Assembly (NCBI RefSeq): GCF_013839425.1
Contig: NZ_JACDNP010000004.1
Coordinates: 186,001-250,000 of the forward strand
From: Halorhabdus salina
GTDB lineage: Archaea; Halobacteriota; Halobacteria; Halobacteriales; Haloarculaceae
Length of the DNA stretch: 64,000 nucleotides
Direction: 5' to 3'
The notes beneath the pieces are model-generated. The model did not search any database. It was not told the DNA's origin and worked only from the letters and a program-made list of their open reading frames with translations. This document shows, in pieces, positions 33,097 through 57,634 of the stretch. The position numbers and the translations under genes were made by a program. Position 1 is the stretch's first letter, and each line of letters opens with the position of its first letter.

Positions 33097-33123
33097 GTGT
33101 TGATACGAACGAAGGGATCTCTC

Positions 33124-33960
33124 ATGAATCACGACCGAATTGATTCTGTGGCTACAGCTCTAGCTGGAATTGGATACGATGGAATCGTCGCTTTCGATCG
33201 AGCCGAGCCCGAGTTCGGCACGATCGAGAAATTGTTCGAAGAGTTCGATTCAGATGATTATGTTCAGTTGCTTGTCGTACTCGCGACGACACAAGACTAC
33301 CAACTCAATGGCGACGCGCAACGATTTTGGAACGAATTCGAACAAACGGCCCTTACATACGATACTCTGACGAGCAAACAAACCGTTCGCGAGATTCTCG
33401 GCGATTTCATGGATGCAGATGTCAACGCACGTCTGAACCAACAAAAGCGAGACCGGCTTCTTTGTCTGTTTGAATCTGATTTCGATGAGTGGTTCCTCGA
33501 TAATCACCAGCAGGCAACACCTGAGGTCGTCTGGAAAGAACTGGCCGACGGGCTCAACACCGACATGACAGCGAAGACTGTCGCTCTTTCGATGAAGGTG
33601 TACGATAACGCTCATCTCATCCAACACGGTGAATATCGGGAGTTTCCGCCAGACATCCCGATTCCATGTGACTTGCAAGTCAAACGGGTTTCAAGAACGT
33701 CGGGCGTTACCACCGACGACGACACCGAGCGAGTCCTTCAAGTCTGGAATGAGGTCATGGACGCGACGAGCGAGCAACTCGGTCGACACGTCTCCATCTT
33801 CCGGATCGACAGTATTGTTTGGCAAGCAGGCCAGATTATCGGCGAGCACGAACCGGACGCCCGAGCTGCAAGGAACGCTTTGGTCGAGCACTTTGAGGAT
33901 GTCGGACTTGCGAATAATGAGGCAAGCCCACTTGCACGTGAATTGACGGCGGAAATGTAG
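33124..33960 (+). CDS. AGOG-like DNA glycosylase/lyase (HhH, 8-oxoguanine type)
   Basis: This 278-residue protein resembles archaeal GO glycosylase in its core: AKTVALSMKVYDNA (Lys151) and DIPIPCDLQV (Asp183), then SRTSGV. The Lys-to-Asp distance of 32 residues equals that recalled for the catalytic Lys140/Asp172 of Pyrobaculum AGOG. AGOG removes 8-oxoguanine and nicks the strand. ATG 33124 is preferred; a GTG at 33097 touches the upstream stop. Sitting on a defence element and facing a nuclease/DUF6884 pair, it may act on modified bases of invaders rather than in repair. Confidence 0.7.
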   Translation: MNHDRIDSVATALAGIGYDGIVAFDRAEPEFGTIEKLFEEFDSDDYVQLLVVLATTQDYQLNGDAQRFWNEFEQTALTYDTLTSKQTVREILGDFMDADVNARLNQQKRDRLLCLFESDFDEWFLDNHQQATPEVVWKELADGLNTDMTAKTVALSMKVYDNAHLIQHGEYREFPPDIPIPCDLQVKRVSRTSGVTTDDDTERVLQVWNEVMDATSEQLGRHVSIFRIDSIVWQAGQIIGEHEPDARAARNALVEHFEDVGLANNEASPLARELTAEM

Positions 33961-37539: not shown

Positions 37540-38808
37540 CTACTCTAAGAGATCTTCCTGGATACTCCATCCGATTACTTCAGCAAGTAACGGTGGAACA
37601 GCATTTCCCACGAGCCGGAAGTTATTAACGAGTGATGCTTTGAATCGATAGGTATCTGGGAAGGACTGGAGTCGCGCAGCCTCACGGACAGTAAGCGATC
37701 TGGCCTCACGAGGGTGGATGAACATGTGACCATCCTTTTCGAGATGTGCGATGATAGTGGACGCAGGTTCACGCGGGTTCTGTTTCTTGTACTTATCTGG
37801 GAATATGTCATCTCGGTATGGCTGGAGGTGTTGGCTAATTTCGTCGATGTTCCAGCCCGCCCCCTCTCCAAGGAGTTTGTAGATGGTGAGATCCAGCATA
37901 TTGTGTCCGCGACAGGTATGGTTATGAAGCGAAATCTCGCTCCAGTCATCGACACCGTCCCTGTTCCGGGCCCATTCCTGATACTCGGTCACGGGCGGAA
38001 TAGTGTAGTTATCAGCCGTTTTCGGGGGAGTTTCACCCTCCGGGCTTACAGGTGGTAGATCAAGAATTGCCTCACCGACAGTGATCCAGGGTTCTCGCCC
38101 CGAACGAGGATCCTCTTGCGCACCGCCACCATACTCAGACATCGTCGCCTGAGGCGTGGAACGGAAGGCAGAGGGATCGCGACGGACAGTCATCTCGGTT
38201 TCTGTCTCTCTCACCGGTTCCCGGTGAGTCGCTCGGTTCTCGAGATCAGGGTTTGGCTGGTCGAGCCGGTTACCGATGAAGAAAATGCGGTTCCGGTGCT
38301 GAGGAACGCCGTAATCTGCGGCATCCAAGTGGTAGACGGTCGTCTGATACCCGGCCTCCTTGCTCTGGCGTTTTATTTCCTCAATGATGCTCTCGCGAAG
38401 GGTACCCGAGGCAGATTCCATGTTCGCAACATTCTCCATCAGAAATACAGGGGGTTTGATCGACTGAACAAACCTGAAAAAGTCCTCAAACAGATAGTGC
38501 CGATCATCCGTCGCCACTGTCTGTCCATCCAGGGAATCAATCTTGCTTCGACCGATCCGGGAAAAGGTCGGACAGGGAGGACCACCAGCAATTAGATCAA
38601 TGTTATCTTGGTCGACGGGAGCGTCCTCCGAGTCAAGTTTGCGAATATCGGCGATATCGAGTTCGCCCGTGTGATTCTCAGAGTATGTCTCCTCGACGTC
38701 TGGGTCATTATCTACGGCCCAGAGAACATCGAACCCGGCCCACTCTAGACCGGTAGACAGGCCGCCAGCACCGGAAAAGAGGTCAATTGCCTTCGGCGTC
38801 TCGGTCAT
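37540..38808 (-). CDS. Cytosine-C5 DNA methyltransferase
   Basis: This 422-residue Dcm-type enzyme shows motif I AIDLFSGAGGLSTG, motif IV GGPPCPTFSRIGRS (catalytic Cys near residue 79), motif VI MENVANM, motif VIII PQHRNRIFFIG, and C-terminal motifs IX-X (REPASTIIAHLEKDG, RSLTVREAARLQSFPD, NAVPPLLAEVIG). A target-recognition region lies between about 190 and 320. It follows the fusion methyltransferase gene by 56 bp on the same strand, so the pair is probably one transcript. Confidence 0.93.
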   Translation of the reverse strand: MTETPKAIDLFSGAGGLSTGLEWAGFDVLWAVDNDPDVEETYSENHTGELDIADIRKLDSEDAPVDQDNIDLIAGGPPCPTFSRIGRSKIDSLDGQTVATDDRHYLFEDFFRFVQSIKPPVFLMENVANMESASGTLRESIIEEIKRQSKEAGYQTTVYHLDAADYGVPQHRNRIFFIGNRLDQPNPDLENRATHREPVRETETEMTVRRDPSAFRSTPQATMSEYGGGAQEDPRSGREPWITVGEAILDLPPVSPEGETPPKTADNYTIPPVTEYQEWARNRDGVDDWSEISLHNHTCRGHNMLDLTIYKLLGEGAGWNIDEISQHLQPYRDDIFPDKYKKQNPREPASTIIAHLEKDGHMFIHPREARSLTVREAARLQSFPDTYRFKASLVNNFRLVGNAVPPLLAEVIGWSIQEDLLE

Positions 38809-38864: not shown

Positions 38865-41126
38865 TCAGTCGTCCGTACTTGCCCGACTTGCCCGGGCCTG
38901 AGTAGTCGCCATCTCTGAAATGCCTTTTTCGGCAAGATACTCTTGGACGGTGAGTGCGATGCGTTCCCCGAGATGGGGCGGAATCGCGTTTCCGATCTGG
39001 CGGAACCAGCTGGTAAAGGCGCCAAGGAAAATGTAGTCATCCGGGAATGACTGAATACGTGCCGCCTCTCGTGGAGTGATCCCCCGGTTTCGACGAGTAT
39101 CTGGCTCGCCGGAAGCCGTATCCACGTGTTCGTAATAGTCGGGAAGAACAAATCCGTTGGCGTCCTTCGCAAGATGGGCTACGATTGTCGGCGACGGCTC
39201 ATCCCAGCATAGCATACGGTACTTGTCCCTGAAGCGGGGGTTCTCCTCGGTTCCGACGTCATATTCAATCAAATTGCTATACTCGCCGTCCTTGTCGTAT
39301 TTCACGTCCCATCCCGTATCACCAGGCTCCAGTGCTTCGTCAAATAGCGTCTGGTCTTTTTGCATCGGGTGTTCCCGTGCCCGGTGGTTAAAGCAGAGAT
39401 CTGTTCCGTCATCGAGGTCAACCTGAGAGACATACTGACTTCGCGATCCAGGCGGGGTGCCAGTAACGACTCTCCCTCCTTCGCCTCGTTTGAGCCTAGG
39501 GAGACCAGAGAGTGCCTGCTGGAGGTCGTAGTTACCAGCCGGGAGAATATTGGAAAGACGGTCGAACATTTCATCAAGATCTGCGCGATCCGTTGCAAGG
39601 TCCTCTCGGACGCCAAGAATGATGACCCTCTCGCGTTTTTGTGGAATGCCAAAGTCGGAGCAATCAAGCAGCCTGTAATCACAGACGTAGCCCGAGTCAG
39701 CACCACCAATCGACTCCAACGAATCAAGAACTAAATCTCCGACTTTGATACCTGTGTCTTTGACCTCGTTAACCATGCCCTCGACGTTCTCCATTACCAG
39801 TACCTTGGGTCGTAACTCTTCGACAAACTTGACGTACTGGGTGTACAGGGACGTTCGAGCGTCCTCAAGGATGCTGTAATCGTCGTCATTGGCCCGACGA
39901 GTACGGTAGCCTGCTTGCGAGAGGGATTGACATGGCGGGCCACCTACGACAATGTCAGGAGTGCGTTCAAGATCCTCGACCGCTCCCGACCCGATGGCAT
40001 TTCGAATATCATCACAGACGATATTTTTGTGAGGGATTTCAGGGTGGTTAAGCCGATAGGTGTCCGTCGCATCTTGGTCGTTGTCAATCGCCCAGTCAAT
40101 ACTACAGCCGGCTCGATCGAATCCGAGTGAGATACCACCAGCACCAGAAAATAGGTCGATCACGACAGGACCATCCTGTTGTTGTGACTGCTTTCGAAGT
40201 CGATGTGAAAGCAGGAACTTCCTGATTTCGCAGTGTTCACCGCAGACATCTATGTCGCCCTTGATAGCGTGCCCTGCAAGAGCTCGATGAAGAGGTGCTA
40301 GCTGGCGATCGGTTAGCCGCCCCTCAAGTTTTGTTCGACGCTCAGCACTATCCTTGAATCGGCTCTGGTCCAGCAATCCTAGTGAGCAGAGTATACCATC
40401 AACAAACGGTCCAGCAGGCCAAACTGGCTTGTCGAAAGCAACGAGAAGAAGCCACCATGCATCTGAACGGGATACTCCGGGGAAACTGGTAAGCAAGTCA
40501 CGGAATGCGCTGTACTGCATTCCATGAATCCCCTCAAGGGTAACCCCATCCGTCTTTGAACAGTCCGCAACGGATTCGAGCAATGCCTCCAACCGGTCAA
40601 CTCGCTGCTCACCGATTCCCGGCCTCGTCGTCGCTTCTGCGAGTTCTCTTTCCAGATCATCCCTGGATAGAGCGGCAATTTCGTCCCAGGCTCCCATCAT
40701 GCGCTTTATTCGGGCAATCAATTCCCGTTCTTCATGGTCGAAGTAGCGCTGTCCGGGGGTTCTATTATCACGGGCTATTGCGACTGCGGCCACAGTATCA
40801 AGCGGATCATCGCTATCAGACAGTGGATCACCGCAATCACATGCAGAATCTGAGTCCGTCGACACACATGCAGTAGTGAGGTTTCGATAACGACAAGGGT
40901 ATTTCTCTCCCCCCCTCCGTCGTCGGGCAAGGCTCTCGGACGATGACGTCGGGCAGCCCGTGGGATGGTACCAGTGCTGGTGGTACTGTTCTGCCGTCAG
41001 AACGTCTATAAGAAAGTCAACATGACGAAATACAAATTCTCGGTGCAGTTCTAATTCGTCATCAGGTGCTTCCGACAACACCGCGGGAAGAGATAGTGAG
41101 TCAGTATCCGCACCCCGACCAGTCAT
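38865..41126 (-). CDS. Fusion: degenerate HhH-GPD (EndoIII-like) domain plus cytosine-C5 methyltransferase
   Basis: In this 753-residue protein, residues about 315-750 are a complete C5 methyltransferase: DLFSGAGGISLG, GGPPCQSLSQAG (Cys near 397), MENVEGM, PQKRERVIILG, and a NAIPPHLGERIA end. Residues about 135-310 resemble the EndoIII fold: helix-hairpin-helix FPGVSRSDAWWLLL (about 213-226), then PAGPFVDGILCSLGLL where EndoIII has VDTHVxRVxNRLGL. The catalytic Lys and Asp are replaced (Ser and Gly) and the iron-sulfur Cys set is incomplete. A Cys-rich segment precedes it (about 55-105). ATG 41126 is preferred: CTTTATG upstream fits a TATA box. Confidence 0.8.
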   Translation of the reverse strand: MTGRGADTDSLSLPAVLSEAPDDELELHREFVFRHVDFLIDVLTAEQYHQHWYHPTGCPTSSSESLARRRRGGEKYPCRYRNLTTACVSTDSDSACDCGDPLSDSDDPLDTVAAVAIARDNRTPGQRYFDHEERELIARIKRMMGAWDEIAALSRDDLERELAEATTRPGIGEQRVDRLEALLESVADCSKTDGVTLEGIHGMQYSAFRDLLTSFPGVSRSDAWWLLLVAFDKPVWPAGPFVDGILCSLGLLDQSRFKDSAERRTKLEGRLTDRQLAPLHRALAGHAIKGDIDVCGEHCEIRKFLLSHRLRKQSQQQDGPVVIDLFSGAGGISLGFDRAGCSIDWAIDNDQDATDTYRLNHPEIPHKNIVCDDIRNAIGSGAVEDLERTPDIVVGGPPCQSLSQAGYRTRRANDDDYSILEDARTSLYTQYVKFVEELRPKVLVMENVEGMVNEVKDTGIKVGDLVLDSLESIGGADSGYVCDYRLLDCSDFGIPQKRERVIILGVREDLATDRADLDEMFDRLSNILPAGNYDLQQALSGLPRLKRGEGGRVVTGTPPGSRSQYVSQVDLDDGTDLCFNHRAREHPMQKDQTLFDEALEPGDTGWDVKYDKDGEYSNLIEYDVGTEENPRFRDKYRMLCWDEPSPTIVAHLAKDANGFVLPDYYEHVDTASGEPDTRRNRGITPREAARIQSFPDDYIFLGAFTSWFRQIGNAIPPHLGERIALTVQEYLAEKGISEMATTQARASRASTDD

Positions 41127-41304
41127 GTCTCCCTGTAGGTAACCCAGCACATAAAGCCCCAGGACTTAGTCGTAACTGAATACCTTATTCACAGCTATGA
41201 GAGCGCGTATAGGGTATCTGGGAGTGATAATTGGCCTATTTCCTCGGCAACTTGGATAGCTACGGTACTCAGGATTATTACGCTAGCGCGTTGAGAACGG
41301 TACA

Positions 41305-42087
41305 GTGGGAAACGTGAAGCTGCCTTTCGGACGTACCCAGGTTTCGGCAGATGAAATTTCAGAGCTTGTCAGGGTTAACAGGGCGTCACAGCTGCTTCAC
41401 GAGAGCGGAAAAACAGACAGCGAAGACCAGATACGGTCGTTCATTCAGACTGTTCCAGACCTTCTCGGCTGGCTTGAACAACACGGCCGAGAATTCCCTT
41501 GGAGGTATACTACTGACCCCTGGCGTGTATATGTATCTGAGATATTGTTACAGCGGACTCGTGGTGATGCAGTAGCGGGTATCTACGACGAGTTCTTCAG
41601 CCAGTTCCCGGACCCAGAGACTCTGAATCGCGCAGACGAGAAGGATATTCATGACGCAGTATCGTCACTCGGGTTCGGGAATCAGCGAACACGAACGTTA
41701 CAGGAGGTCGCCGAACTTTGCCACTGTGAATATGGTGGAGATGTCCCAAAGGATCTTGAGGCACTCAAACAATCTTGGCGAGTCGGACCATACTCGGCTC
41801 GTGCCTGTCTACTGTTTGCTTGCGCTGAACCATACGCTCTCGTTGATGCTAATGTCGCACGGGTGATCGGGAGGGTCCTAGATTATGAAATGCCGACTCA
41901 GCCACACAAAAGCAAAACCGTGTATGAGCTCATGGAATGCCTAGTTCCAGACGACCCGGAAATCGCTCGGGCATTCAATCTGGCTTTCCTCGACCTTGGA
42001 GCATTGATCTGTACACCCGATGAGCCACAGTGCCCGTCCTGTCCGCTCGAAGACTGTTGTGCCTTTGCAGCTACCAGACTTGGATAG
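41305..42087 (+). CDS. MutY/Mig.Mth-like HhH-GPD G:T mismatch DNA glycosylase
   Basis: This 260-residue protein has FPWRYTTDPWRVYVSEILLQRT, HhH with VGPYSARACLL (Tyr163), the catalytic Asp in ALVDANVARVIGR (Asp181), and a C-terminal [4Fe-4S] set C236-x6-C243-x2-C246-x5-C252. The Tyr-Asp pair and LLQRT match the thymine-DNA glycosylase Mig.Mth, which accompanies a C5 methyltransferase on a methanogen plasmid. It starts at GTG 41305; no in-frame ATG exists near. Divergent from the fusion methyltransferase, 178 bp between starts. Confidence 0.85.
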   Translation: MGNVKLPFGRTQVSADEISELVRVNRASQLLHESGKTDSEDQIRSFIQTVPDLLGWLEQHGREFPWRYTTDPWRVYVSEILLQRTRGDAVAGIYDEFFSQFPDPETLNRADEKDIHDAVSSLGFGNQRTRTLQEVAELCHCEYGGDVPKDLEALKQSWRVGPYSARACLLFACAEPYALVDANVARVIGRVLDYEMPTQPHKSKTVYELMECLVPDDPEIARAFNLAFLDLGALICTPDEPQCPSCPLEDCCAFAATRLG

Positions 42088-42548: not shown

Positions 42549-43490
42549 TTAGCCCATCCGAATCTCTTGCGAACCTGTGGACGCGAGGAGGAACTCGATA
42601 AGCTTCCGGAAATTGGTGACTTCGGGGCCCTTGATCAGGACTCCTGTTTCGAGATAATGCTCGAATCCGTAGTCGGTCACATTCGCACTGCCGACATAAA
42701 CCGAGGAATCGTCAAACGCCATCACTTTCGCGTGAAGGGTGAATGCTGGGTTGTCACCTTCCTGTTTTCGGGCCTCATCAGGCGTTTCTTCACTCCACCC
42801 AGTATAGTCGATTAAATGGAGGCTTTCGGTGCTTACACCGTCATCCTGCACGTTGTCAGCGAAGTCCGAAAGGACCTGCCGGTTGTAGGACTCTTGATCC
42901 CTGAGATACCGAGAGACGATTGTTACTTGGACGCCACGGTCTAGTGCAGCAATCAGAACATCCTGCAATCGTTCGAAACCTTCGCGTTCGAAGAAAGGCG
43001 AGAGCAGTACGATCGAGTCCGTGCAGCGTTTAATTTCTCGAGTGAGTGTGGGCATCAACCAAGACATCCCGAAATCAGAGGGACTGACCTCGCGAAAGCC
43101 GGGATCAGCGGGGAAGGTCACAAGTGGCCTAACAGTCGTTTCAGGAGGTCCTTGAGACTCAAAAACGGTGATGGCCTTTCCCGCGTGTCGAGCCGCTGTG
43201 AGCACTTCTCGACAGCGTTTGGCATCGACTGCATAGTGACTGTCTGCAATTGAGCCGCTGAATGAATCCCGATCAAGTACACCAGTTTGCTCAAGATGGC
43301 GAAACAGATCAGTGGCAGCCTCTTCGTCAATATCTGTCTCCCGTGCAAGTCCAACCGGAGAGAGCGTAGTATCCTTGCCCGCAGCAGCCAAGAGGATACC
43401 CTCAACCTGGGTGAGGAGTCCTGCATCACGGTTGACCAGATCAGCGATCGAGAGGGGCGTCCACATACCGTTAGCTGATTCAGACGTCAT
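42549..43490 (-). CDS. drmC: DISARM protein DrmC (phospholipase D-like)
   Basis: This 313-residue protein has a winged-helix-like N-terminal region (about 15-80) and a PLD nuclease/phosphodiesterase domain. One full HxK(x4)D(x6)GSxN motif is seen in HAKVMAFDDSSVYVGSANVT near residues 252-271. An earlier strand SIVLLSPFFEREG may stand in for the first half. Position directly after drmB and drmA identifies it. Known DISARM work found drmC dispensable in one class 2 system. Confidence 0.88.
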   Translation of the reverse strand: MTSESANGMWTPLSIADLVNRDAGLLTQVEGILLAAAGKDTTLSPVGLARETDIDEEAATDLFRHLEQTGVLDRDSFSGSIADSHYAVDAKRCREVLTAARHAGKAITVFESQGPPETTVRPLVTFPADPGFREVSPSDFGMSWLMPTLTREIKRCTDSIVLLSPFFEREGFERLQDVLIAALDRGVQVTIVSRYLRDQESYNRQVLSDFADNVQDDGVSTESLHLIDYTGWSEETPDEARKQEGDNPAFTLHAKVMAFDDSSVYVGSANVTDYGFEHYLETGVLIKGPEVTNFRKLIEFLLASTGSQEIRMG

Positions 43491-43541: not shown

Positions 43542-45494
43542 CTATACTTTCCAGTAGCCAGTAATAGTACGGTCTGTGTTCGGCCGGCTGCCGAACAGAT
43601 AGTCCCGAGAGATCACCTGGTTGAAATACGAACAGCTAATCTCACTCACGTGTAGACACGACAGACAGGCCCCTCCTCGCTGTGAGCACACCGGGTCGTA
43701 AACACAATCGTTTCCATGAGATTCTGCCTGGCCAAGCAGATTGTCTAACTGTTGCTCGACCATGGTGGTCATGCCACCGATATTGAACTCTTCCCGGTTA
43801 TTGGCGTAGATGACCAGCGACAGTGCTCGCGGGAAAAGGAACTCGCTGAGGTTTGTTCGGTCGAAACCGCTGATAGTGCTGGCCTGCTTCAGCAGGATAT
43901 GACTCGTCGTGTGAAGTAATTTGAATACGTGCTCGGTTATCTGTCCCTCGACATCATCACCGGCGTCGGTTTCGAATCGCCCGTATCCTTCCACAGGCGC
44001 AAGGTGGCTAATGATGAATCCCCACTGCTCGTCTTGTGATAGCTGGCTAATATCGCTCCGGGCATGCTCAAGAGCAGCCTCATCAGTGCTATCAATCTGC
44101 GGCAGAGTGGTCGACCCGTTCACTTCATCTGGGTCGCTGGTCTCGGGGATGTTTAGCGCCAGCCAGAGCAATACACGTTCGGGGTCAAGATCAAACTGGA
44201 CAGCTTCGGTCTCAGATGTATCGACGAAGATGGGTGTCCCATCCCCATCACTTGCGTTCTGTGAGAATGCATTGATCTTGGCTTCATCCTCATCGCGGCC
44301 ACCACGGGTATATCCATAGACGAACGTCTGCACGGGGAAGTCTTCGATCACTCTGACATCTTGTATACCAAGACGATCGAGGTCGTCCTGGTAGGTGCTA
44401 ATACGGTCAGCCTTTTCCGTGAATCCACGGGTACGCGACTGCTGTTCCAGATCGGACAGGGAGTCCGTCGTCAGGTCCTCCCTGCTGAGGACATACTGCA
44501 GGATCTCGTCACCAGCGTCGGTCAGTTCCGACTGGTCGCCATCACTTTCGAGGGAGATTACCTCAGCAAGACGTTCTCGAACGGTCTGACTGTCAATTTC
44601 TCCACGTTCTTTCAGGTGTTCTCGGGCCTCATCGAGGCTCGTAATATTATCATTCGCCTGGAAAACCTCGACGACCTTCGCGTCGTCCACCTCGACCTCA
44701 CCGACTCGCTCACGGAGGGTAACCTCTTCTACGGATTCAGCGTCGGACAGACCGAAGTGCTGGGCGAACGCTTTTCTCGCCCCATCCTCGCTCTGTCTGA
44801 GATGGCCAATTCCTGCCGAATGAAGATTGACGGTGGTGATGTAGTGCGGGTAGTAGACACTCCCCGCCCGGTGAACAGTCGTGTACATCCCGTCGTTCTC
44901 ATCGCCAGCGGGCGGAGTATACTCACACCCGCAGTTCTGAAAATTCCGCATCGGCGTTTCCCAGCCACAGCCATCGACCTCGCAGCTCCAGTGGAAATTC
45001 CGAACTCGCTGGCTATCCCGCCGGTCGAGAACGACATGTCTGTCGCCGTGGTTGGGACATGACTGAGGATAGAGACGTCTGATCTCTCCGCAGCTGTGAA
45101 CGCTCACAAACTGGTACTGCTTGAGGTCACCACCACACCGATCGCAGGTCAGGTCAGGATTCTGGCTTTCCAGATCGTCCGCCGAGTAGTATCCGTGCGC
45201 TTTCTCGCAGTTCTGGCACTCGAAGGTCGTTGGGAACGGCTGTGACCGAACGCCCTTCGGCTCACCGAAGTGGTAGTGGTCGGGATTCGATGACGCGAAC
45301 CCTGCCTGGCCCCCTTCCCAGTTTCGTACTCGTGCAAGTACCCGGGAAAGGATGTAATCACGGCTAATTTGACCACTGACGTCGCTCGTTTCAAGTCGAG
45401 TCACCTGCCAGATTCCGCGCTGATCGCTGTAGTCGAACGTGTTTTCTGGCAGGAACTGATACAGTACCTGTGACCGACTTCGTTCCATTGACAT
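43542..45494 (-). CDS. drmB: DISARM protein DrmB (DUF1998)
   Basis: This 650-residue protein has N-terminal zinc-binding CxxC pairs (CQNCEKAH, CDRCGGDL), further Cys pairs around 150-190, and the DUF1998 C-terminal region. The latter has SHILLKQASTISGFD, LVIYANNREEFNIGGM, and a Cys cluster VCSQRGGACLSCLHVSEISC near residues 600-622. It starts 2 bp after drmA ends. DrmA and DrmB form the DNA-loading complex of DISARM. Confidence 0.9.
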   Translation of the reverse strand: MSMERSRSQVLYQFLPENTFDYSDQRGIWQVTRLETSDVSGQISRDYILSRVLARVRNWEGGQAGFASSNPDHYHFGEPKGVRSQPFPTTFECQNCEKAHGYYSADDLESQNPDLTCDRCGGDLKQYQFVSVHSCGEIRRLYPQSCPNHGDRHVVLDRRDSQRVRNFHWSCEVDGCGWETPMRNFQNCGCEYTPPAGDENDGMYTTVHRAGSVYYPHYITTVNLHSAGIGHLRQSEDGARKAFAQHFGLSDAESVEEVTLRERVGEVEVDDAKVVEVFQANDNITSLDEAREHLKERGEIDSQTVRERLAEVISLESDGDQSELTDAGDEILQYVLSREDLTTDSLSDLEQQSRTRGFTEKADRISTYQDDLDRLGIQDVRVIEDFPVQTFVYGYTRGGRDEDEAKINAFSQNASDGDGTPIFVDTSETEAVQFDLDPERVLLWLALNIPETSDPDEVNGSTTLPQIDSTDEAALEHARSDISQLSQDEQWGFIISHLAPVEGYGRFETDAGDDVEGQITEHVFKLLHTTSHILLKQASTISGFDRTNLSEFLFPRALSLVIYANNREEFNIGGMTTMVEQQLDNLLGQAESHGNDCVYDPVCSQRGGACLSCLHVSEISCSYFNQVISRDYLFGSRPNTDRTITGYWKV

Positions 45495-45496
45495 TG

Positions 45497-48400
45497 TTAT
45501 GACTGGTTCTCAAGGGTATCGAGGAGGTCCCGGTACTTGTACTCCGATCGGATGGGTAGCTGTTCATCGACGTCACGAAGGCTACGCATAGCACCCCGTG
45601 GAAGTCGATTACTGGCCCACTGCTGATCGTCAAGCTGGATCTGTGAAATTGATAGGTTGGTTAGCTCTTTGGCATCGTGACTGAACTCTTCGGGTACCTC
45701 ATCACCGCCATACATGCGGGTGATCAGGTCTTCCAGTTCTTGGTCATCGACTTCTGCGAGGAAGTCTTCGGCGCTATCGCCAAAGAACAGTTTCTCTGAA
45801 CCGTCACGGTACATGTAGTGGTTCAGAAGCAGACTCATGAACAGCCCCGGGTGAGTACGCTGAACGCCGTTTTTCGCCCATCGATTGACCGATACTGGTT
45901 CGACGAGGCGATCGAGGAACTGGTGGTACTTCTCGAAGAAGTGGTAGTGGCTCAAGTCGCGTTCACGGATTGGATGGAAGACGTTGAACACTAGTCCCGG
46001 GTGAAAGCGCCCTGCCCGTGAGCTGGACTGGATATACTCAGCAGTCTGACGTGGCATTCCGAAGAACACCATCATGTTAAACCGCTCGACGTCGACGCCG
46101 TGGCTGATCATGCTCGTCGCAGTGATGGTGTTGAGACGACTCGCGAGCAGCCAGGCAAGACCCTCTCGAACGGCTTCGTCAGCCTGTCTGAGGGCGACAC
46201 GGAACTCATCGCTCTCGACGTCGGACGCGTCGTCGAGACTGGCTTCTAGGGTGTCTCGCAAGTCCATGATCGCATCCTGTGTTTCGGGTGGAAGGACGTC
46301 GTCGTCGACCAGAGATTGCAGGATGCCTCTGTCTTCATCCTCTTGCCAGGGATTGTCCAGTAGGTCAAGGATGTCCTGGACCTTCTCGAAAGGGGTCCCG
46401 CCAGTCATTCGCTCAGACGCGAGCGGCGGTCGATCGTCACGTCGCAGATACGCGTTGAGCTGACTGACAATGGACTGGTCAAGGCGATCGCCGTCTTTCT
46501 TTGAGAGCAGGTACGTCAGGCTTGTACTGTAGAGGGTGAGCGTTTGTAGAACCTCGTCGATGGAGTTGGCGTTCAGCGGTGCACTGGTATCTGTTCCTTC
46601 GAGTGCGACACCAGTAAGAAGGTCTTCCGGTGACTCCATCGCCGTCGTCATCAGGTCTTGCACCTCCTTGTGAAAATAGAATAGAATGTCGATGATCGAG
46701 TTAATATGCGTCTTGCCGTGCGGTATGAGGCCGATGTAATATCGCTGGCTCTCTGCCTGCTCCTGTGCGTAGAAGTTCTCGCGTAGATACGGGCCCGGTG
46801 CTGGGAACCGTTCAGCTGGTCGCAGGAACAGGTGATAGACCTGATCCTCGTAAGCGGTAATCGTCGCCGTCGGAGCGATGATCTTTGTCTGACCAGCGTC
46901 GACGAGTTCTTGCAGGGTATCGATGCCGGTTTCGTAGTGACCATCGAAGCTACCAACACTCTCCTCAAGCAGGTGAAGCTCGTCGGGGACCATCAACGAG
47001 GGGGCAGGATCGTAGACCTCGATGGGAGAGGCCATCAACTCGAACTCGTCCCTGTCGATGTCACACCCGTATTTCTCGGTGCACTCGCCGAGACTGGCGA
47101 ACCCGTGAATCGGGCATTCGTATTCCATCTCGCCCGTGAGGATGTGCGCCATCTTCCGCTGGTAGCCGATGGCAGTGATCTTGTCGATGGTTCCCGCGAG
47201 GATGGTTGGCGCGTATCGGTAGAGTTCGTTATCGACGACGTGTACGGGAAGTTCGTCTTCAGCGTACGTCTCATCGGCTGTCGTCTCCCGGCTTTGCCAG
47301 TCACAGTCGAAGGGATTGCCAGTACAGACGTGTGCGAGTCGAATATCGTCAGTAACTCGCATCTCGATGTCTGACCCACAGGCCGGACAGGATGGAATGA
47401 CCTTGGCGTCCTCTCGCAGTTTGGGGTCGTCCTGATACCGGCTGAAGTTATCATTATCGTATCCGGTCAGTGCGTTCGGTGTGTTGGCCTTGCCGACAAG
47501 GAAGCCGACGCTGAACGGCCTCGATGGACGGGACCCGATCTCGGGTTGTTCGCGGCGTACGACATCGGCGTACACCACAGTCTCCGACATGCGCTGAAGC
47601 TGCTGGAGAGAGAGTAGCCGTAGCGGGAAGCGAGTCCACGCGGCCACGCCGAAGTGCTTGCCCCGAATCCTGTCGAAGAACATGTTCCAGACTGCGACGC
47701 CGAGGAATGCTTCGGTTTTGCCACCACCGGTGGGGAACCAGAGCACGTCGACGACGTCGAGAGCCCCATCTGCGTCTTGGAACCGTTCGGTCATCTCATC
47801 GCCATCCCGCCAGCTGATGTCCTCCCAGCCCTCGTGCTCGCGACTGGCAATGTCAGGGACCAGCATCACGATGAAGACCAGCTGGAAAAGCCTCCAAGAG
47901 TCGAAGCCGTGCATCCGGTCCATCGTCTCGTTCATCAGCTCGAATGCTCGGCCGACGCTCTCAGGGTGGTCGCGAAGACAGCGAATACCGCGTTCGAATC
48001 GCCGAATTTCTCGGAGGAACGCCTTGCGGTCCTCCATGAAGTCCTGCTCATCGCGCCCGTCAGCGTCCCAGTCTTCACGTTCTCGGTACTGCTCGAGCGC
48101 AGTATCGTAGGCCTCCTGGTGATAGTCGCGCATCGCCTGTGCGACGGCATCCAGTACCTCGAACCCGCCGTCGTCGAGACTGGACAGTTCGTTGAAAGAG
48201 GTCTCGACGTCGCGATCGGCCGATTCGTAGACGAGCTGCCGGTGCTCGGGGATGAACTGTGTCTGCAAGTGGTTAGCAGTCGGGTTAGCCTGGGGCGCTC
48301 GCCGTCCAGGCGTCCGACCATTTCGTATCGTTTCCTCCTGACCGGGGACGCGGATCGTGCAGTTGCGACCGTGGCCCCAGAGATCTCGGTTATATCGGAA

Positions 48401-49336
48401 GTCTTCGGGGAGTGGATCGAACGTGAAGGGGACGAATTCGACGTCCCCCTCCGTCCGGAGGTCCAGCTGGACCTCGAAGAAAGTAGGGTCACGAATGGTG
48501 TATATCGCATCCCGCTTGGAGTGATCAGCAGTATTCTCGAATTCGACGTCGACGATGAGCTGGTCGTCGCGGTCGGATTCGCGGTCCAGCGAGGTGGTTA
48601 GTTCAAGAGAGCCGTTCCAGTGAGGAATGGCCGGTTCACCTTCTCGCTCTTCGAGATAGTCCTCGTAGGCCTCTTCGTCCGCAAGGGCGCTGTGGGGGAC
48701 ATCGTCGTCAGGATGTTCGTCACCGGGGTCGAGGTAGATGTCCTCGCGGGCCTGTGCTTGGGCCTGTACGTCCTCGAACGCCTCGGTCAGCGCTTCCGTG
48801 GCTCGCTCACGAACTACTTCGGGAGTTTCGCGGGCCGGGCCCGAAAGAGCCTCGTAGGGGATCTTGACAGGAGGAACGTCGAGATTGAACCGCTCGAAAA
48901 CGGGCAGGAGGTCAGTTTCAGCCTCCTCTTCTTCCTCGCGATCGCCGAGAGTGACGAAATTGTCACGGTTATTCATCTCCTCGTAGGTCGGGTTGACCCG
49001 AACCCAGACGCTCCCGCTAATTTCGACGACGAGCTCGTCTCCAGGGCCACCACCACGAACCTTGACGGTTGAACCAACGGCGTTTGGTTCCATCTTTGAC
49101 TGGAGGTCGTCATCTGTGGTTTCCAGTTGGTTCTCGCTCCTAGGAGAAAGTGCACCAGCAAAGAACCGATCACTGGGGAAATCCCGTTTCACGCGGTCAT
49201 CTTCGCCGGCTCGTCGGCCACTCACACGGTCAAGAATCCGTTTTCGGAGATGTCGTGCTATTCGCTCGTCATCGTCTGGAGGTCCTGTCCCACCCGATAT
49301 TGCGTCCCCCGCGGGCTGTGGTTGCTGACCTGACAT
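45497..49336 (-). CDS. drmA: DISARM helicase DrmA
   Basis: This 1279-residue protein has an acidic N-terminal region (1-480), SF2 helicase Walker A LWFPTGGGKTEAFLG near residues 530-541, and a Cys4 insertion (CPACGSD...CTGNPFDC). The DExH box variant PDELHLLEE is near 783, and motif VI-like SSSRAGRFHPGLVF near 1110. Length and order fit DrmA of class 1 DISARM. First gene of the leftward drmABC unit; its start region lies in a divergent promoter shared with drmMI. Confidence 0.92.
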   Translation of the reverse strand: MSGQQPQPAGDAISGGTGPPDDDERIARHLRKRILDRVSGRRAGEDDRVKRDFPSDRFFAGALSPRSENQLETTDDDLQSKMEPNAVGSTVKVRGGGPGDELVVEISGSVWVRVNPTYEEMNNRDNFVTLGDREEEEEAETDLLPVFERFNLDVPPVKIPYEALSGPARETPEVVRERATEALTEAFEDVQAQAQAREDIYLDPGDEHPDDDVPHSALADEEAYEDYLEEREGEPAIPHWNGSLELTTSLDRESDRDDQLIVDVEFENTADHSKRDAIYTIRDPTFFEVQLDLRTEGDVEFVPFTFDPLPEDFRYNRDLWGHGRNCTIRVPGQEETIRNGRTPGRRAPQANPTANHLQTQFIPEHRQLVYESADRDVETSFNELSSLDDGGFEVLDAVAQAMRDYHQEAYDTALEQYREREDWDADGRDEQDFMEDRKAFLREIRRFERGIRCLRDHPESVGRAFELMNETMDRMHGFDSWRLFQLVFIVMLVPDIASREHEGWEDISWRDGDEMTERFQDADGALDVVDVLWFPTGGGKTEAFLGVAVWNMFFDRIRGKHFGVAAWTRFPLRLLSLQQLQRMSETVVYADVVRREQPEIGSRPSRPFSVGFLVGKANTPNALTGYDNDNFSRYQDDPKLREDAKVIPSCPACGSDIEMRVTDDIRLAHVCTGNPFDCDWQSRETTADETYAEDELPVHVVDNELYRYAPTILAGTIDKITAIGYQRKMAHILTGEMEYECPIHGFASLGECTEKYGCDIDRDEFELMASPIEVYDPAPSLMVPDELHLLEESVGSFDGHYETGIDTLQELVDAGQTKIIAPTATITAYEDQVYHLFLRPAERFPAPGPYLRENFYAQEQAESQRYYIGLIPHGKTHINSIIDILFYFHKEVQDLMTTAMESPEDLLTGVALEGTDTSAPLNANSIDEVLQTLTLYSTSLTYLLSKKDGDRLDQSIVSQLNAYLRRDDRPPLASERMTGGTPFEKVQDILDLLDNPWQEDEDRGILQSLVDDDVLPPETQDAIMDLRDTLEASLDDASDVESDEFRVALRQADEAVREGLAWLLASRLNTITATSMISHGVDVERFNMMVFFGMPRQTAEYIQSSSRAGRFHPGLVFNVFHPIRERDLSHYHFFEKYHQFLDRLVEPVSVNRWAKNGVQRTHPGLFMSLLLNHYMYRDGSEKLFFGDSAEDFLAEVDDQELEDLITRMYGGDEVPEEFSHDAKELTNLSISQIQLDDQQWASNRLPRGAMRSLRDVDEQLPIRSEYKYRDLLDTLENQS

Positions 49337-49563: not shown

Positions 49564-52500
49564 ATGACTCAGAATGCCTTCCCATACCGTACGAACCGGG
49601 ATTTGTTCTCTAACCACTACCTGACCGACCATCTACGCGACACAGAACCCTGGAACGAGGTCGACGACGCTGAAGTCCGGGATGTCTACGACGAGATACG
49701 CGACCTCTATGAGAAGAAGCGACACCGATTCAACGACGAAGACTACAACGAGGCGCAGCTCGAACGGAACTTCATTCGGCCAATCTTCGAGATTCTCGAT
49801 GTCTCCTACGAGATCGAGGAAACGGTCGAGCGGAACGCACGACGGCCGGACTACGGCTTCTTCGAGACGGACGAGGCCGCCGACGCAGCCTTCGACCGGA
49901 ACAACTTCTACGAGGAAGCAATTGCGGTCGCCGACGCCAAACGCTGGGGACGGAAGCTCGACACCCGTGGTGAGGAGAAGCGGGACTTCGAGAACCCGAG
50001 CTACCAGATCCACGCCTACCTTCAGGACACACCGACGACCTGGGCAGTCCTGACGAACGGACAGAAGTGGCGACTTTACTACGGCCCCACGAGTCACCGG
50101 CTCGACTCCTACTACGAAATCGACCTGCCGACCCTGCTCCAGCACGTCGAAGACAGCGGCAGTCTGGAAGACTTCAAAGACTTCTACCTCTTCTTCCGCA
50201 AGGAGGCTTTCGTCGAGGACACCACGGGAAGCGCGTTCCTCGACGACGTCTACGAGGAATCGAGCGTCTTTGCCGAGGCTCTGGGCGAAGACCTCCAGGA
50301 CAACATCTACGAGGCGATTCGCGTCCTCGCAGAGGGGTTCCTCGACACGAACGAGGAGCTCGACGAGGACGATCTCGAACGGATTCACGACAGTTCACTC
50401 ATCTACCTGTATCGGCTGATCTTCGTCCTCTACGCAGAAAGTGAGGGTCGAAACCTGCTACCCACGGATAACCCGATTTACCGCGAGAGCTACAGCCTGA
50501 ACGCCCTCAAACAGACGGTTGCCGAAAACCGGGACGAGACCCAGCAGCACTATCAGTCGTGGCAGACTAATCTCTGGGACCGTCTTGAGGAGCTGTTTGT
50601 CCTTATCGATCAGGGAAGCCACGGGAAGGGCATCCCGAAGGACGACCTGTATATCCCCGCGTACAACGGTGGTCTGTTTCGGACTGACCCCGAGCCAGAC
50701 GACAGTGAGGAAGCCCGGTTCCTCGCGAATTACGAAGCAGGCGATGCGTACCTGGCTGAAGTCCTAGATCTGCTTGCGCGTCGGGAGGCTGACGACGGCG
50801 AAGGTCAAGTGTTCGTCGACTACTCGTCGCTCGATGAACGCCACCTCGGGTCGATTTACGAAGGGCTGCTTGAATACAAGCTTGATGTCGCTGATGAGCC
50901 CCTTACTGTCGATGATGGCGAATATTCCCCGGCTGGTGATGGTGACGATATTGAGGTGTCGCAAGGCGACGTGTATCTTCGAACAGATGCTGGTGAGCGC
51001 AAGGCTACCGGTTCGTACTACACGCCCGAGTACGTCGTTGAGTACATCGTCGATGAGACACTTGAGCCACTTATTGACGACATTCAGAAGGACCTCATGG
51101 CACAGGATCCATTCGATAAAGAAGGCGGCGGTCAGTTCGCAGAGGATTTCGCCGACCGCGTTTTCGACCTGAAGGTTCTTGACCCAGCGATGGGCAGTGG
51201 CCACTTCCTTGTAAACGCTGTAGACTATCTCGCGAGAGAAATTATTGATGCACAAGAGCGGCAGGATCAGCAAGCGGTCAAGGCGGGTAACGAAGAGGCT
51301 ATAAGCGATCCCCGGACTAAAGAAGGCGAACTTCGTGACATTAATTGGGCACGTCGTAAGGTCGCTCAACGTTGTATTTATGGAGTTGATCTAAACCCTC
51401 TAGCGACAGAGCTCGCCAAGGTATCGCTCTGGTTACGTACTCTCGCCGCGGAGCAACCGCTGGCTTTCCTTGACCACCATCTCAAGACAGGGAACTCACT
51501 GATTGGCAGTGATATTGCTGATGTCTTGGAAAACGGTGGGAACGCCACCGAAGAGGGCCAACTTACTCTACAGCAGTCGTTTGCTCGTATGCGTCAAGAG
51601 GCCCTAGAACACGTTATGGGCCGATTCCAAGACTTGTTCTCGATTAATAACGAGACACTTGAGGACATCAAGGAGATGGAGGAGGTGTATGAAGAGGTGA
51701 GAGAGGACTCGCTATACCAGCATCTTCTCTCCATGGCCAATGTCCACACTGCGAAGGAGCTCGGGCTGGATGTACCCGCCGATGCCCATGAGCGGATGGC
51801 CGAGGCTTTACGCGATGATTCCTGGGAGGGCGTAGAAGATCAAGAGTGGTTCCAAGCTGCTCAGGCGATGGCTAGTGATGAGAAGTTCTTCCACTGGGCT
51901 TTAGAATTCCCAGTCGCATTCTACGATACAGACGGAGAGCGTCGAAGCGAGGCGGGATTCGATGCTGTGATCGGGAACCCCCCGTATGTCCCAACGGAAC
52001 AGCTTCCAGAACCGCATCGAGAATACCTCACGGACGTATTCGAGGAAGTCCTCCATAGAAAATATGATAGTTCTGTAGCGTTCTTACAACAAAGTTTCCG
52101 CCTCTGTCTCAAGGATAAAGGGCAGGTTGGAATGATTACCCCTGTTGCTTGGGAGACTGGAGAAAATTACGAGCGCTTCCGAGAGCATAACTTTGTTTCA
52201 GGCGATGTCGGTCTCAAGACGATTGTAAATCTACCGTTCGATGTGTTTGAGGATGCATATGTAGATACCAACATTGTGATATTTAGTCCGGGTAGAGAAC
52301 TCGAAACATTCAGTGCAAAAGAATTCGAAAAGAGGGAGAAAGTGGAGAGTAGTGCTGCAATCGGCAGGAATCACACTGAGATTCCGATTGACTACTTATC
52401 TAGTGATCCCGGCTACAAGATTTACTTTGATAAAGAATACTATGAATTGCTTCAGCGCTTCAATGAAGATCGATTCGGCCGGCTTGGCGACTACACTGAT

Positions 52501-53703
52501 GCATGCCAAGGAATTGTAGCGTCGTTCTACGATTATGCAGACGAACAGCTGTCTGAGAACTATCTACGCTATCGTGAGTGCGACGTATACCGGTATGAAT
52601 GTACAACTACGGAAGAACGGTATATCGACTTCAGTGATGAGGATTCACTAGAGAAATATTACACACAGCCCCGTATATTAGTCAGAAGACTTGTTAATCG
52701 AGATGACCGTCTAATGGCGACATACGCTGAAGATGACTTCGTGACCAAGAAGGACCTCAACCCATTTATCAAGACTGTTGACGAGTATTCACTTAAGTAT
52801 CTCTTAGCGTCATTAAACAGCGCTCTCCACTCGTACCTCTACATAAAATCCTCCGCACTGGCAACAAAGGACGACTTCCGACAAACCACGCTCGCGGAAT
52901 TGAGGGCGCTTCCGGTTCGGCGAATTCCATTCGATACAGATGAAGAAGTACAGACCCAGCAGAAAGAAGAATTCATACACAGTTACGACGATTGGATTGA
53001 GGGAAGCAACGACCGGCCCCCAATTCCGAACTCACCTGCTGCGCTTCATGATTCAATATGTGCGTTAGTAGATTCAATCACTGAACTAAAACATCAACGC
53101 ACAAAATACAATCTCAACCTCCTCGATTATCTGGGGAATTACGCTGAGGGGCCAAACCTTCCAGATATAGGCCTCTTCCAGCCCTCTACTAGCCCCGGCT
53201 TACTTGAGTCAACTACAGAAGACTTTGAGAATCTTCGGGTCGGTACGGTGAAAACTGAACGTGCTAACGATCAGATCACGGTCTATGCTACTGTTCGGTA
53301 CAAACCTGAAAATCCTGAGGAATATGACACAGATCAGTGGGGGTATATAGAAACAGAACCCGAAGAAGCGTTCTCAGTTGCAAACCTGAGTGAGGAAGCA
53401 GCAGAACTGGTTGAGGAGTTTGTTCCTGTCGCTGTTGAGAAGGCAGATGGGTTTGCAGATTTCCGCGATAACGCAACTAAAAATAACTCGCCACTAGACC
53501 GTCTGAAGTCTGTCACTCTCCCAGACCCAGAAGGTGTTTCCGAGGATCTCCAGCGCTATATCGAGGCTAAAGAAAGCGCCAACGAGCTTGACGAGAAAAT
53601 CAAAAAGACTGACCAGCTCATTGATGAGATTATCTACAATCTCTATGACCTGAATGAAGGGGAGATCGAAACTGTTGAACAGGCAGTGAAAGGCGATGAC
53701 TGA
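49564..53703 (+). CDS. drmMI: DISARM class 1 adenine-specific DNA methyltransferase DrmMI
   Basis: This 1379-residue protein's N-terminal part (about 50-170) has RNFIRPIFEILDVSYE, RPDYGFF and VADAKRWG, resembling the PD-(D/E)xK-like N-terminus of Eco57I-type enzymes. Methyltransferase motifs: TGSYYTPEYVVEYIVDETL, motif I LDPAMGSGHFLVNA near 540, motif IV NPPY at about 804-807. A target-recognition region follows. GC content falls sharply in the second half, suggesting a mosaic gene. It overlaps drmD by 8 bp. Confidence 0.9.
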   Translation: MTQNAFPYRTNRDLFSNHYLTDHLRDTEPWNEVDDAEVRDVYDEIRDLYEKKRHRFNDEDYNEAQLERNFIRPIFEILDVSYEIEETVERNARRPDYGFFETDEAADAAFDRNNFYEEAIAVADAKRWGRKLDTRGEEKRDFENPSYQIHAYLQDTPTTWAVLTNGQKWRLYYGPTSHRLDSYYEIDLPTLLQHVEDSGSLEDFKDFYLFFRKEAFVEDTTGSAFLDDVYEESSVFAEALGEDLQDNIYEAIRVLAEGFLDTNEELDEDDLERIHDSSLIYLYRLIFVLYAESEGRNLLPTDNPIYRESYSLNALKQTVAENRDETQQHYQSWQTNLWDRLEELFVLIDQGSHGKGIPKDDLYIPAYNGGLFRTDPEPDDSEEARFLANYEAGDAYLAEVLDLLARREADDGEGQVFVDYSSLDERHLGSIYEGLLEYKLDVADEPLTVDDGEYSPAGDGDDIEVSQGDVYLRTDAGERKATGSYYTPEYVVEYIVDETLEPLIDDIQKDLMAQDPFDKEGGGQFAEDFADRVFDLKVLDPAMGSGHFLVNAVDYLAREIIDAQERQDQQAVKAGNEEAISDPRTKEGELRDINWARRKVAQRCIYGVDLNPLATELAKVSLWLRTLAAEQPLAFLDHHLKTGNSLIGSDIADVLENGGNATEEGQLTLQQSFARMRQEALEHVMGRFQDLFSINNETLEDIKEMEEVYEEVREDSLYQHLLSMANVHTAKELGLDVPADAHERMAEALRDDSWEGVEDQEWFQAAQAMASDEKFFHWALEFPVAFYDTDGERRSEAGFDAVIGNPPYVPTEQLPEPHREYLTDVFEEVLHRKYDSSVAFLQQSFRLCLKDKGQVGMITPVAWETGENYERFREHNFVSGDVGLKTIVNLPFDVFEDAYVDTNIVIFSPGRELETFSAKEFEKREKVESSAAIGRNHTEIPIDYLSSDPGYKIYFDKEYYELLQRFNEDRFGRLGDYTDACQGIVASFYDYADEQLSENYLRYRECDVYRYECTTTEERYIDFSDEDSLEKYYTQPRILVRRLVNRDDRLMATYAEDDFVTKKDLNPFIKTVDEYSLKYLLASLNSALHSYLYIKSSALATKDDFRQTTLAELRALPVRRIPFDTDEEVQTQQKEEFIHSYDDWIEGSNDRPPIPNSPAALHDSICALVDSITELKHQRTKYNLNLLDYLGNYAEGPNLPDIGLFQPSTSPGLLESTTEDFENLRVGTVKTERANDQITVYATVRYKPENPEEYDTDQWGYIETEPEEAFSVANLSEEAAELVEEFVPVAVEKADGFADFRDNATKNNSPLDRLKSVTLPDPEGVSEDLQRYIEAKESANELDEKIKKTDQLIDEIIYNLYDLNEGEIETVEQAVKGDD

Positions 53704-56659: not shown

Positions 56660-57634
56660 TCAAAATGTCCCCTCACGTTCCAGTTCAGTGATGCCATATT
56701 TGTCCAGTCGGCGGGCGAGAAAATTGAAAAGACAAAGGATATCGATAGCATCGCGTTCGTCAATATCGTCGAGGAATCTGTTTCGATCTGGATTGCCACG
56801 TGGATGGCTTACTGGGTTCCGAAGAGCTTTGAAAACGCCAGAGTACAGGAACATCAGTCCTTTCTGCTCCCCGTCAGTGTACCCCCACCTGAACACGGGA
56901 TCACTCTCTCTGAATGCTCGATTGGCGAGGTCGCTTGTATTCTGGGCTTCTCTGACGAGGTCTTCAGGCGTCTCCTGTTTCAGAATTTCTTCTAGCGCCG
57001 TGCCAGCAGCCTGAATCACACCAGTATAATCCTCATTCTCCAGCCTCTCAACACACACTGACGGAATTGTTGAATGAAGATGTGCCTCGGGGTTAAGCAG
57101 GTATTTCGTGGTACGAATCACATCTTGCTTTTCCTCTTCAACACCCGCCAGAAATATCTCGAAGAGACTATACAGCCGTTCGAGGTGGTTAGACTCCCTG
57201 ACTTCATCACCGTTCACTCTGTCAGTAGAGGGAATGCGGGCCGCATTTTCGACTGGTTTACCGCCCGAGGAAAGCGCAAGAACTCGAAAACCTCTACTTG
57301 TGACCTTGACTTCCAGATGACGAACGTCCTGCTCACCGGAACTGTCTTCGTAGGTGCCCTCCACTGGGGAAGTCGTTAACTTTACTGTCTCACCACGATC
57401 TTCCTGAAGCCAGTCTCCGAGGCGGGACTGCATCAGTTTGACCGTCTTGAGCTCCATCCGACTTACTTCTATGCGGGTGATCTCCTCGGTCTTCTGATCA
57501 TCACCCATGTAGATCGTCTCAATTTCCAGCCCTACCTGACTGTCTTCCTTGTAGATGTGGAATTTGGACTCCTCTCTCCCCTTCCAGCTATTAGATTCGT
57601 AAAAGTCACACGAGATGGAGTCAGCAATTTCCAT
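56660..57634 (-). CDS. HEPN-like TIGR02391 (Ymh) domain protein
   Basis: In this 324-residue protein, residues about 1-190 form an unrecognised beta-rich N-terminal half. The C-terminal half matches the Ymh/TIGR02391 pattern: YTGVIQAAGTALEEILKQ, then LMFLYSGVFKALRNPVSHP, with R-x4-H as in HEPN domains, and DAIDILCLFNFLARRLD. HEPN proteins are often RNases in abortive infection. It is convergent with drmD, so it may be a separate defence gene. Confidence 0.7.
   Translation of the reverse strand: MEIADSISCDFYESNSWKGREESKFHIYKEDSQVGLEIETIYMGDDQKTEEITRIEVSRMELKTVKLMQSRLGDWLQEDRGETVKLTTSPVEGTYEDSSGEQDVRHLEVKVTSRGFRVLALSSGGKPVENAARIPSTDRVNGDEVRESNHLERLYSLFEIFLAGVEEEKQDVIRTTKYLLNPEAHLHSTIPSVCVERLENEDYTGVIQAAGTALEEILKQETPEDLVREAQNTSDLANRAFRESDPVFRWGYTDGEQKGLMFLYSGVFKALRNPVSHPRGNPDRNRFLDDIDERDAIDILCLFNFLARRLDKYGITELEREGTF

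Follow-up and report, generated by a model that had tools for sequence, protein, structure and literature searches.

A gene on the minus strand of the window, the 64,000-nucleotide stretch of Halorhabdus salina DNA analyzed here, encodes a fusion protein (positions 38865 to 41126; supported by the ORF, Pfam, PADLOC, and NCBIfam) in which an N-terminal region with a predicted endonuclease III (EndoIII) fold precedes a C5-cytosine methyltransferase resembling DrmMII. The pairing of a pseudo-glycosylase with a C5 methyltransferase is conserved across salt-loving archaea. The reading that we favor, with a probability of about 0.5, is that the fusion is a DrmMII-like DISARM methyltransferase carrying a non-catalytic EndoIII-fold accessory module for positioning or docking. 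Full-text literature searches, with REBASE and subscription papers outside their scope, returned no report of an HhH-GPD domain fused to a C5 methyltransferase, in agreement with the sequence-only reading that had preceded this analysis and that knew of no described enzyme with this architecture. Three points were missing from that reading: the DISARM context of the gene, the retention of the catalytic Asp in its relatives, and the presence of an intact Mig/MutY-type glycosylase gene next door.

The reading frame is open from either a GTG at 41150 or an ATG at 41126, and its stop codon ends at 38865. The ATG, which the sequence-only reading had used as the start, agrees with the start Met conserved among the relatives; the GTG is an alternative start, and residue numbers are counted from it throughout. 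The product is one intact protein, with an N-terminal region of ~310 residues followed by a complete C5 methyltransferase, and a gene-fusion or frameshift artefact was ruled out by the 21 distinct intact ORFs found in the family. Pfam placed a C5 methylase at residues 330-735 (7.4e-61) and had zero matches in the first 320 residues. As delimited by Pfam, PADLOC, and the family alignment, the methyltransferase domain spans residues 329-745 (38916 to 40166, minus strand) and contains motifs I, IV (PCQ), VI (ENV), VIII, IX, and X, all intact and in order, together with a TRD. By motif criteria, the C-terminal part of the fusion is therefore a C5-cytosine DNA methyltransferase, and the full enzyme that had been proposed to follow the EndoIII-like part is indeed there.

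Evidence for an EndoIII fold in the N-terminal region was obtained from sequence profiles and from structure prediction. The NCBIfam model NF053634 (monofunctional DNA glycosylase DR2438) matched residues 138-261 of the fusion with an E value of 4.4e-7 and 29.7 bits, a score far below the equivalog cut-off of 400 bits, and 20 of the 21 family members matched the same model (best E value, 5e-8). When the fusion was used in a plain sequence search of the PDB, Deinococcus radiodurans EndoIII was found over the same stretch (138-261) at E values of 0.007-0.02, and a profile of the 21 N-terminal regions found D. radiodurans EndoIII-1 at 4e-5. HMM-HMM comparison with haloarchaeal EndoIII gave a probability of 98%, with a shallow template alignment. 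An AF2 model of residues 25-326, built from 19 sequences, was all-helical (pLDDT 81, pTM 0.83). Its top Foldseek match was DrEndoIII-1 (E value 8.6e-5, probability 1.00, target TM 0.53), the target TM for EcEndoIII was 0.60, and the 50 matches listed were exclusively HhH-GPD glycosylases. The HhH-GPD fold claimed in the sequence-only reading was thus borne out by the profile HMMs, the HMM-HMM comparison, and the AF2 model with Foldseek, which together confirm the prediction of a two-domain, all-helical fold of the HhH-GPD/EndoIII superfamily, with the domain itself lying at residues about 110-310 (40221 to 40823, minus strand). Chance resemblance to EndoIII was ruled out because the three kinds of search agree on the superfamily and because the family-wide alignment is also ungapped through the HhH-Asp block. 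An origin of the fused domain from the neighboring Mig-type gene was likewise ruled out, as its best matches are to EndoIII-1 and not to 1kea. The full-length two-domain AF2 model was of low confidence (pLDDT 68, pTM 0.67), too uncertain for us to make use of the arrangement of the two halves.

The residues on which EndoIII chemistry depends are largely replaced. Through the HhH-Asp block, the fused domain aligns to EndoIII without gaps, LPGVGRKTA becoming FPGVSRSDA and AVDTH becoming PAGPF. The degenerate helix-hairpin-helix FPGVSRSDAWW (40452 to 40484, minus strand; family alignment) has S229 at the EndoIII Lys120 position, as the sequence-only reading had noticed, and Lys is absent from all 20 relatives too, the column holding S, D, Q, G, N, E, A, R, T, or H across the 21 sequences. 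We did not favor K241 as a substitute catalytic Lys, since haloarchaeal EndoIII proteins with the normal Lys also have a Lys there (FGKP). In the family alignment, the position of the catalytic Asp (EndoIII Asp138) is G247 in the window copy (codon at 40410 to 40412, minus strand). The earlier claim that the Asp is replaced by Gly is accordingly right for this copy and wrong for the family: Asp is present in 18 of 20 relatives, that of Halomicrobium katesii among them, the other two having Asn (L054) and Ser (L055). The three copies without Asp represent three separate branches of the tree, and the domain stays intact in them. As judged from the alignment, loss of the Asp is particular to the window copy and is not a family property.

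The [4Fe-4S] motif of EndoIII (C-x6-C-x2-C-x5-C) is absent from the window copy and from the family, so the description of the Fe-S cysteines as incomplete was correct; C303 and C307, mostly conserved in the family, are the sole Cys near the C-terminal end of the fused domain. Four other Cys (C66, C86, C104, and C106), near-invariant in the 21 sequences, lie in an N-terminal Cys-rich segment (40833 to 40955, minus strand; model pLDDT about 46-72), and these two sets of Cys may bind metal in a different way. The residues with which EndoIII grips DNA have changed as well. The wedge-loop Gln column is variable across the family, the Gly-x-Gly hairpin has become mostly Gly-Ile-Glu/Ser/Asp (18 of 21 sequences have Glu, Ser, Asp, Gln, or Thr in place of the second Gly), Pro-x mostly stands where EndoIII has Thr-His after the Asp, and the net charge of the hairpin is negative in most members, compared to +2 in haloarchaeal EndoIII. 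Among the features by which an endonuclease III enzyme is recognized, the window copy lacks the catalytic Lys, the catalytic Asp, the Fe-S motif, and the wedge Gln loop/Gly-x-Gly hairpin. Monofunctional HhH-GPD enzymes such as MutY and Mig.MthI work without the Lys. Because these two lack the catalytic Lys (PMC2714593), its loss alone is weak proof of a dead enzyme, and the stronger case for inactivity is the family-wide loss of the wedge Gln, the Gly-x-Gly, the Thr-His, and the Fe-S motif. In both fold and sequence family, the nearest match to the fused domain is D. radiodurans EndoIII-1 (DR2438; NF053634; PDB 4unf, 8a5c), from which it differs in lacking the Lys, the wedge Gln/Arg, the Gly-x-Gly hairpin, the Fe-S motif, and, in the window copy, the Asp.

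Of 392 genomes searched across the class, 20 encode the complete N-terminal region, in each case within an open frame of 745-848 codons; much weaker matches to ordinary EndoIII genes were also found. Another sample of 392 genomes, drawn from the order, contained 19 fusion carriers, one of them new, and plasmid records yielded three haloarchaeal matches, two of which were distinct from the genome set. When 393 genomes of the phylum were searched with a profile, no fusion was found outside the order; outside Halobacteria there were weak EndoIII matches alone, and the plasmid matches were all haloarchaeal. A viral or phage origin was rejected, with zero relatives in IMG/VR or INPHARED. We aligned the window copy with 20 distinct relatives. 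Of the 302 columns that the N-terminal region occupies in this alignment of 21 sequences, 29 are invariant, and identity to the window copy is 35-58% for this region, versus 54-70% for the methyltransferase domain. The invariant polar residues of the N-terminal region include K241, E276, R282, R289, R317, and Q321; three Trp in or around the former pocket (W232, W233, and W244) are also invariant, as is the linker helix FLLxHRLRxQ. Since a single ORF encodes the fusion without interruption in the window and all 20 distinct relatives, selection probably maintains the N-terminal domain.

The genes around the fusion place it in a defense locus. Upstream on the minus strand lie drmC, with a PLD domain (42549 to 43490; Pfam, PADLOC, NCBIfam), drmB (43542 to 45494; PADLOC, NCBIfam), and the helicase gene drmA (45497 to 49336; Pfam, PADLOC, NCBIfam); on the plus strand are the Eco57I/TaqI-C adenine methyltransferase gene drmMI (49564 to 53703; Pfam, PADLOC) and the SNF2-like helicase gene drmD (53696 to 56641; NCBIfam). 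By its gene content, the 42.5-56.6 kb region is a haloarchaeal class-1-type DISARM locus to which the fusion gene belongs, and in relatives, too, the fusion sits among drm genes. DrmA was found in 19 of 20 fusion genomes, compared to 53 of 392 genomes overall (Fisher p 2e-17). Like DrmMII, the fusion has a methyltransferase domain that matches DrmMII profiles (to 2.6e-68) and stands beside drmA, drmB, drmC, drmMI, and drmD; unlike DrmMII, it is longer at the N-terminus by about 310 residues, which have the EndoIII fold, and the PADLOC profiles it matched (333-491 positions) align to the methyltransferase part alone. The fusions closest to that of the window (L039-L041, 57%) adjoin a DISARM backbone of another kind, with only about 30% identity in DrmA, which suggests that the fusion methyltransferase is exchanged as a module between DISARM backbones.

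Several other features of these loci were observed. A second, stand-alone C5 methyltransferase gene lies downstream of the fusion (37540 to 38808, minus strand; Pfam, PADLOC), and the same pair is present in L044, L055, L056, and L057; the two enzymes in tandem could each methylate one strand of an asymmetric site. The sole fusion genome with no DrmA match (G091, locus L044) carries the fusion and the second C5 methyltransferase, possibly as an orphaned methylation module. In some DISARM loci, a protein of 905-910 aa with no PADLOC match is encoded between drmA and the fusion (L036:12777-15509, L038:3085-5802). A gene for a Hypoth_Ymh domain protein (56660 to 57634, minus strand) adjoins drmD in the window, with weak matches to the PD-Lambda-3_B and Aga_HEPN defense models, and an AGOG-type 8-oxoguanine glycosylase is encoded a few kb from the DISARM locus (33097 to 33960, plus strand; PF09171, 1.9e-27).

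Divergent from the fusion is a separate gene for an intact HhH-GPD glycosylase of the Mig.MthI/MutY type (41305 to 42087, plus strand; Pfam, PADLOC, PDB alignment). Its product is closest to Mig.MthI (1kea, 5.8e-38) and the MutY core, with homology across the whole core; it has a Tyr in place of the Lys and retains the Asp (VDAN) and the Fe-S motif CX6CX2CX5C. We infer a specificity for T:G rather than A:8-oxoG, because the protein is without the MutY C-terminal domain and its gene adjoins C5 methyltransferases. A T:G mismatch glycosylase beside a C5 methyltransferase is a known arrangement that guards against deaminated 5-methylcytosine. In Methanothermobacter, Mig.MthI (PDB 1kea) is an HhH-GPD mismatch glycosylase paired with a C5 methyltransferase, the two being separate genes as they are for the 41305-42087 protein; the fused domain is instead of a degenerate EndoIII-1 type. 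Orthologues of this gene were found in 20 of 392 genomes, and in 17 of the 20 occurrences, inside and outside DISARM loci, a C5 methyltransferase of the fusion or second type lay beside it (scored within 1.5 kb of fetched flank). Half of the fusion genomes (10 of 20) have the Mig-type gene (Fisher p 1e-9), which is truncated or interrupted in L045 and G092. Since a dedicated Mig-type glycosylase can account for repair in genomes that have one, the fused domain would not be needed there for T:G repair, and of the two proteins of the locus, the 41305-42087 product is more likely to be the one that acts on mismatches.

In the reading we favor, the fusion would serve as the DrmMII-like C5-cytosine methyltransferase of a DISARM system, marking host DNA as self. 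Its N-terminal domain was most likely recruited from an EndoIII-type glycosylase and appears to have lost base excision. Packed against the methyltransferase via the linker helix, the module would help to place the enzyme, whether by an extra non-specific DNA contact, by target-site choice, or by docking to other DISARM proteins, and T:G repair from deaminated 5-methylcytosine would be left to the adjacent Mig/MutY-type glycosylase where present. The view of the pocket as dead is weakened by the Asp, which is kept in relatives more often than would be expected of a fully dead pocket, so that some chemistry or base binding could remain in most members. Most of the family might then still have a working monofunctional glycosylase as N-terminal domain, removing for example a T or U mispaired with G in or close to the methylated site, so that one polypeptide would combine the methyltransferase with its repair enzyme; the window copy would have lost this activity by its change from Asp to Gly. 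The best family match is, after all, to a model named for a monofunctional glycosylase, the Lys is dispensable in MutY and Mig.MthI, and about half of the fusion genomes have no separate Mig-type gene. We nonetheless consider continued glycosylase activity unlikely: the wedge Gln loop, Thr-His, and Fe-S motif are lost family-wide and the Gly-x-Gly in nearly all members, the Asp has been lost in three separate branches with the domain intact, and the window and nine other genomes have a dedicated mismatch glycosylase as well.

The sequence-only reading, noting that EndoIII-fold proteins flip bases, had proposed that the dead glycosylase recognizes bases or mismatches and in this way directs or licenses methylation; in such a model it would flip or probe bases and read mismatches or modified bases. 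The HhH-GPD fold, the Asp of most relatives, and the invariant Trp residues in or near the old pocket are in keeping with this proposal, and there is a precedent in DrEndoIII3, an EndoIII-fold protein with no detectable activity that binds damaged DNA most tightly and whose inactivity has been attributed, as a proposal, to the replaced Thr-His after the Asp (PMC9268735). The fused domain shares with DrEndoIII3 the fold and the replacement of Thr-His; DrEndoIII3 differs in keeping the Lys, the Asp, and the Fe-S cluster and in being a stand-alone protein. The fold called for by the proposal is predicted, but recognition of bases by it is undercut by the family-wide loss of the helix-wedging Gln loop and of the phosphate-gripping Gly-x-Gly/Lys hairpin, now acidic in most members. 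We therefore regard a base-flipping reader as doubtful, and there is only a modest chance that a non-catalytic reader senses mismatches, hemimethylation, or viral base modifications and so controls the place or timing of self-methylation. Quite improbable, finally, is a scaffold alone, concerned with folding, salt stability, or dimerization and touching neither DNA nor a partner. Such a role would suit a domain that evolves faster than the methyltransferase and has lost its known functional residues; it fits poorly with 29 invariant columns that include the six charged or polar residues listed above, and with the four near-invariant Cys.

The fused domain would be a conserved descendant of a base-flipping repair enzyme, so far seen in one archaeal class only, and an example of a glycosylase fold that has outlived its chemistry, with a dedicated working-type glycosylase in the same locus. 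It may also offer a handle on how DISARM methyltransferases choose their sites and avoid protecting incoming DNA.
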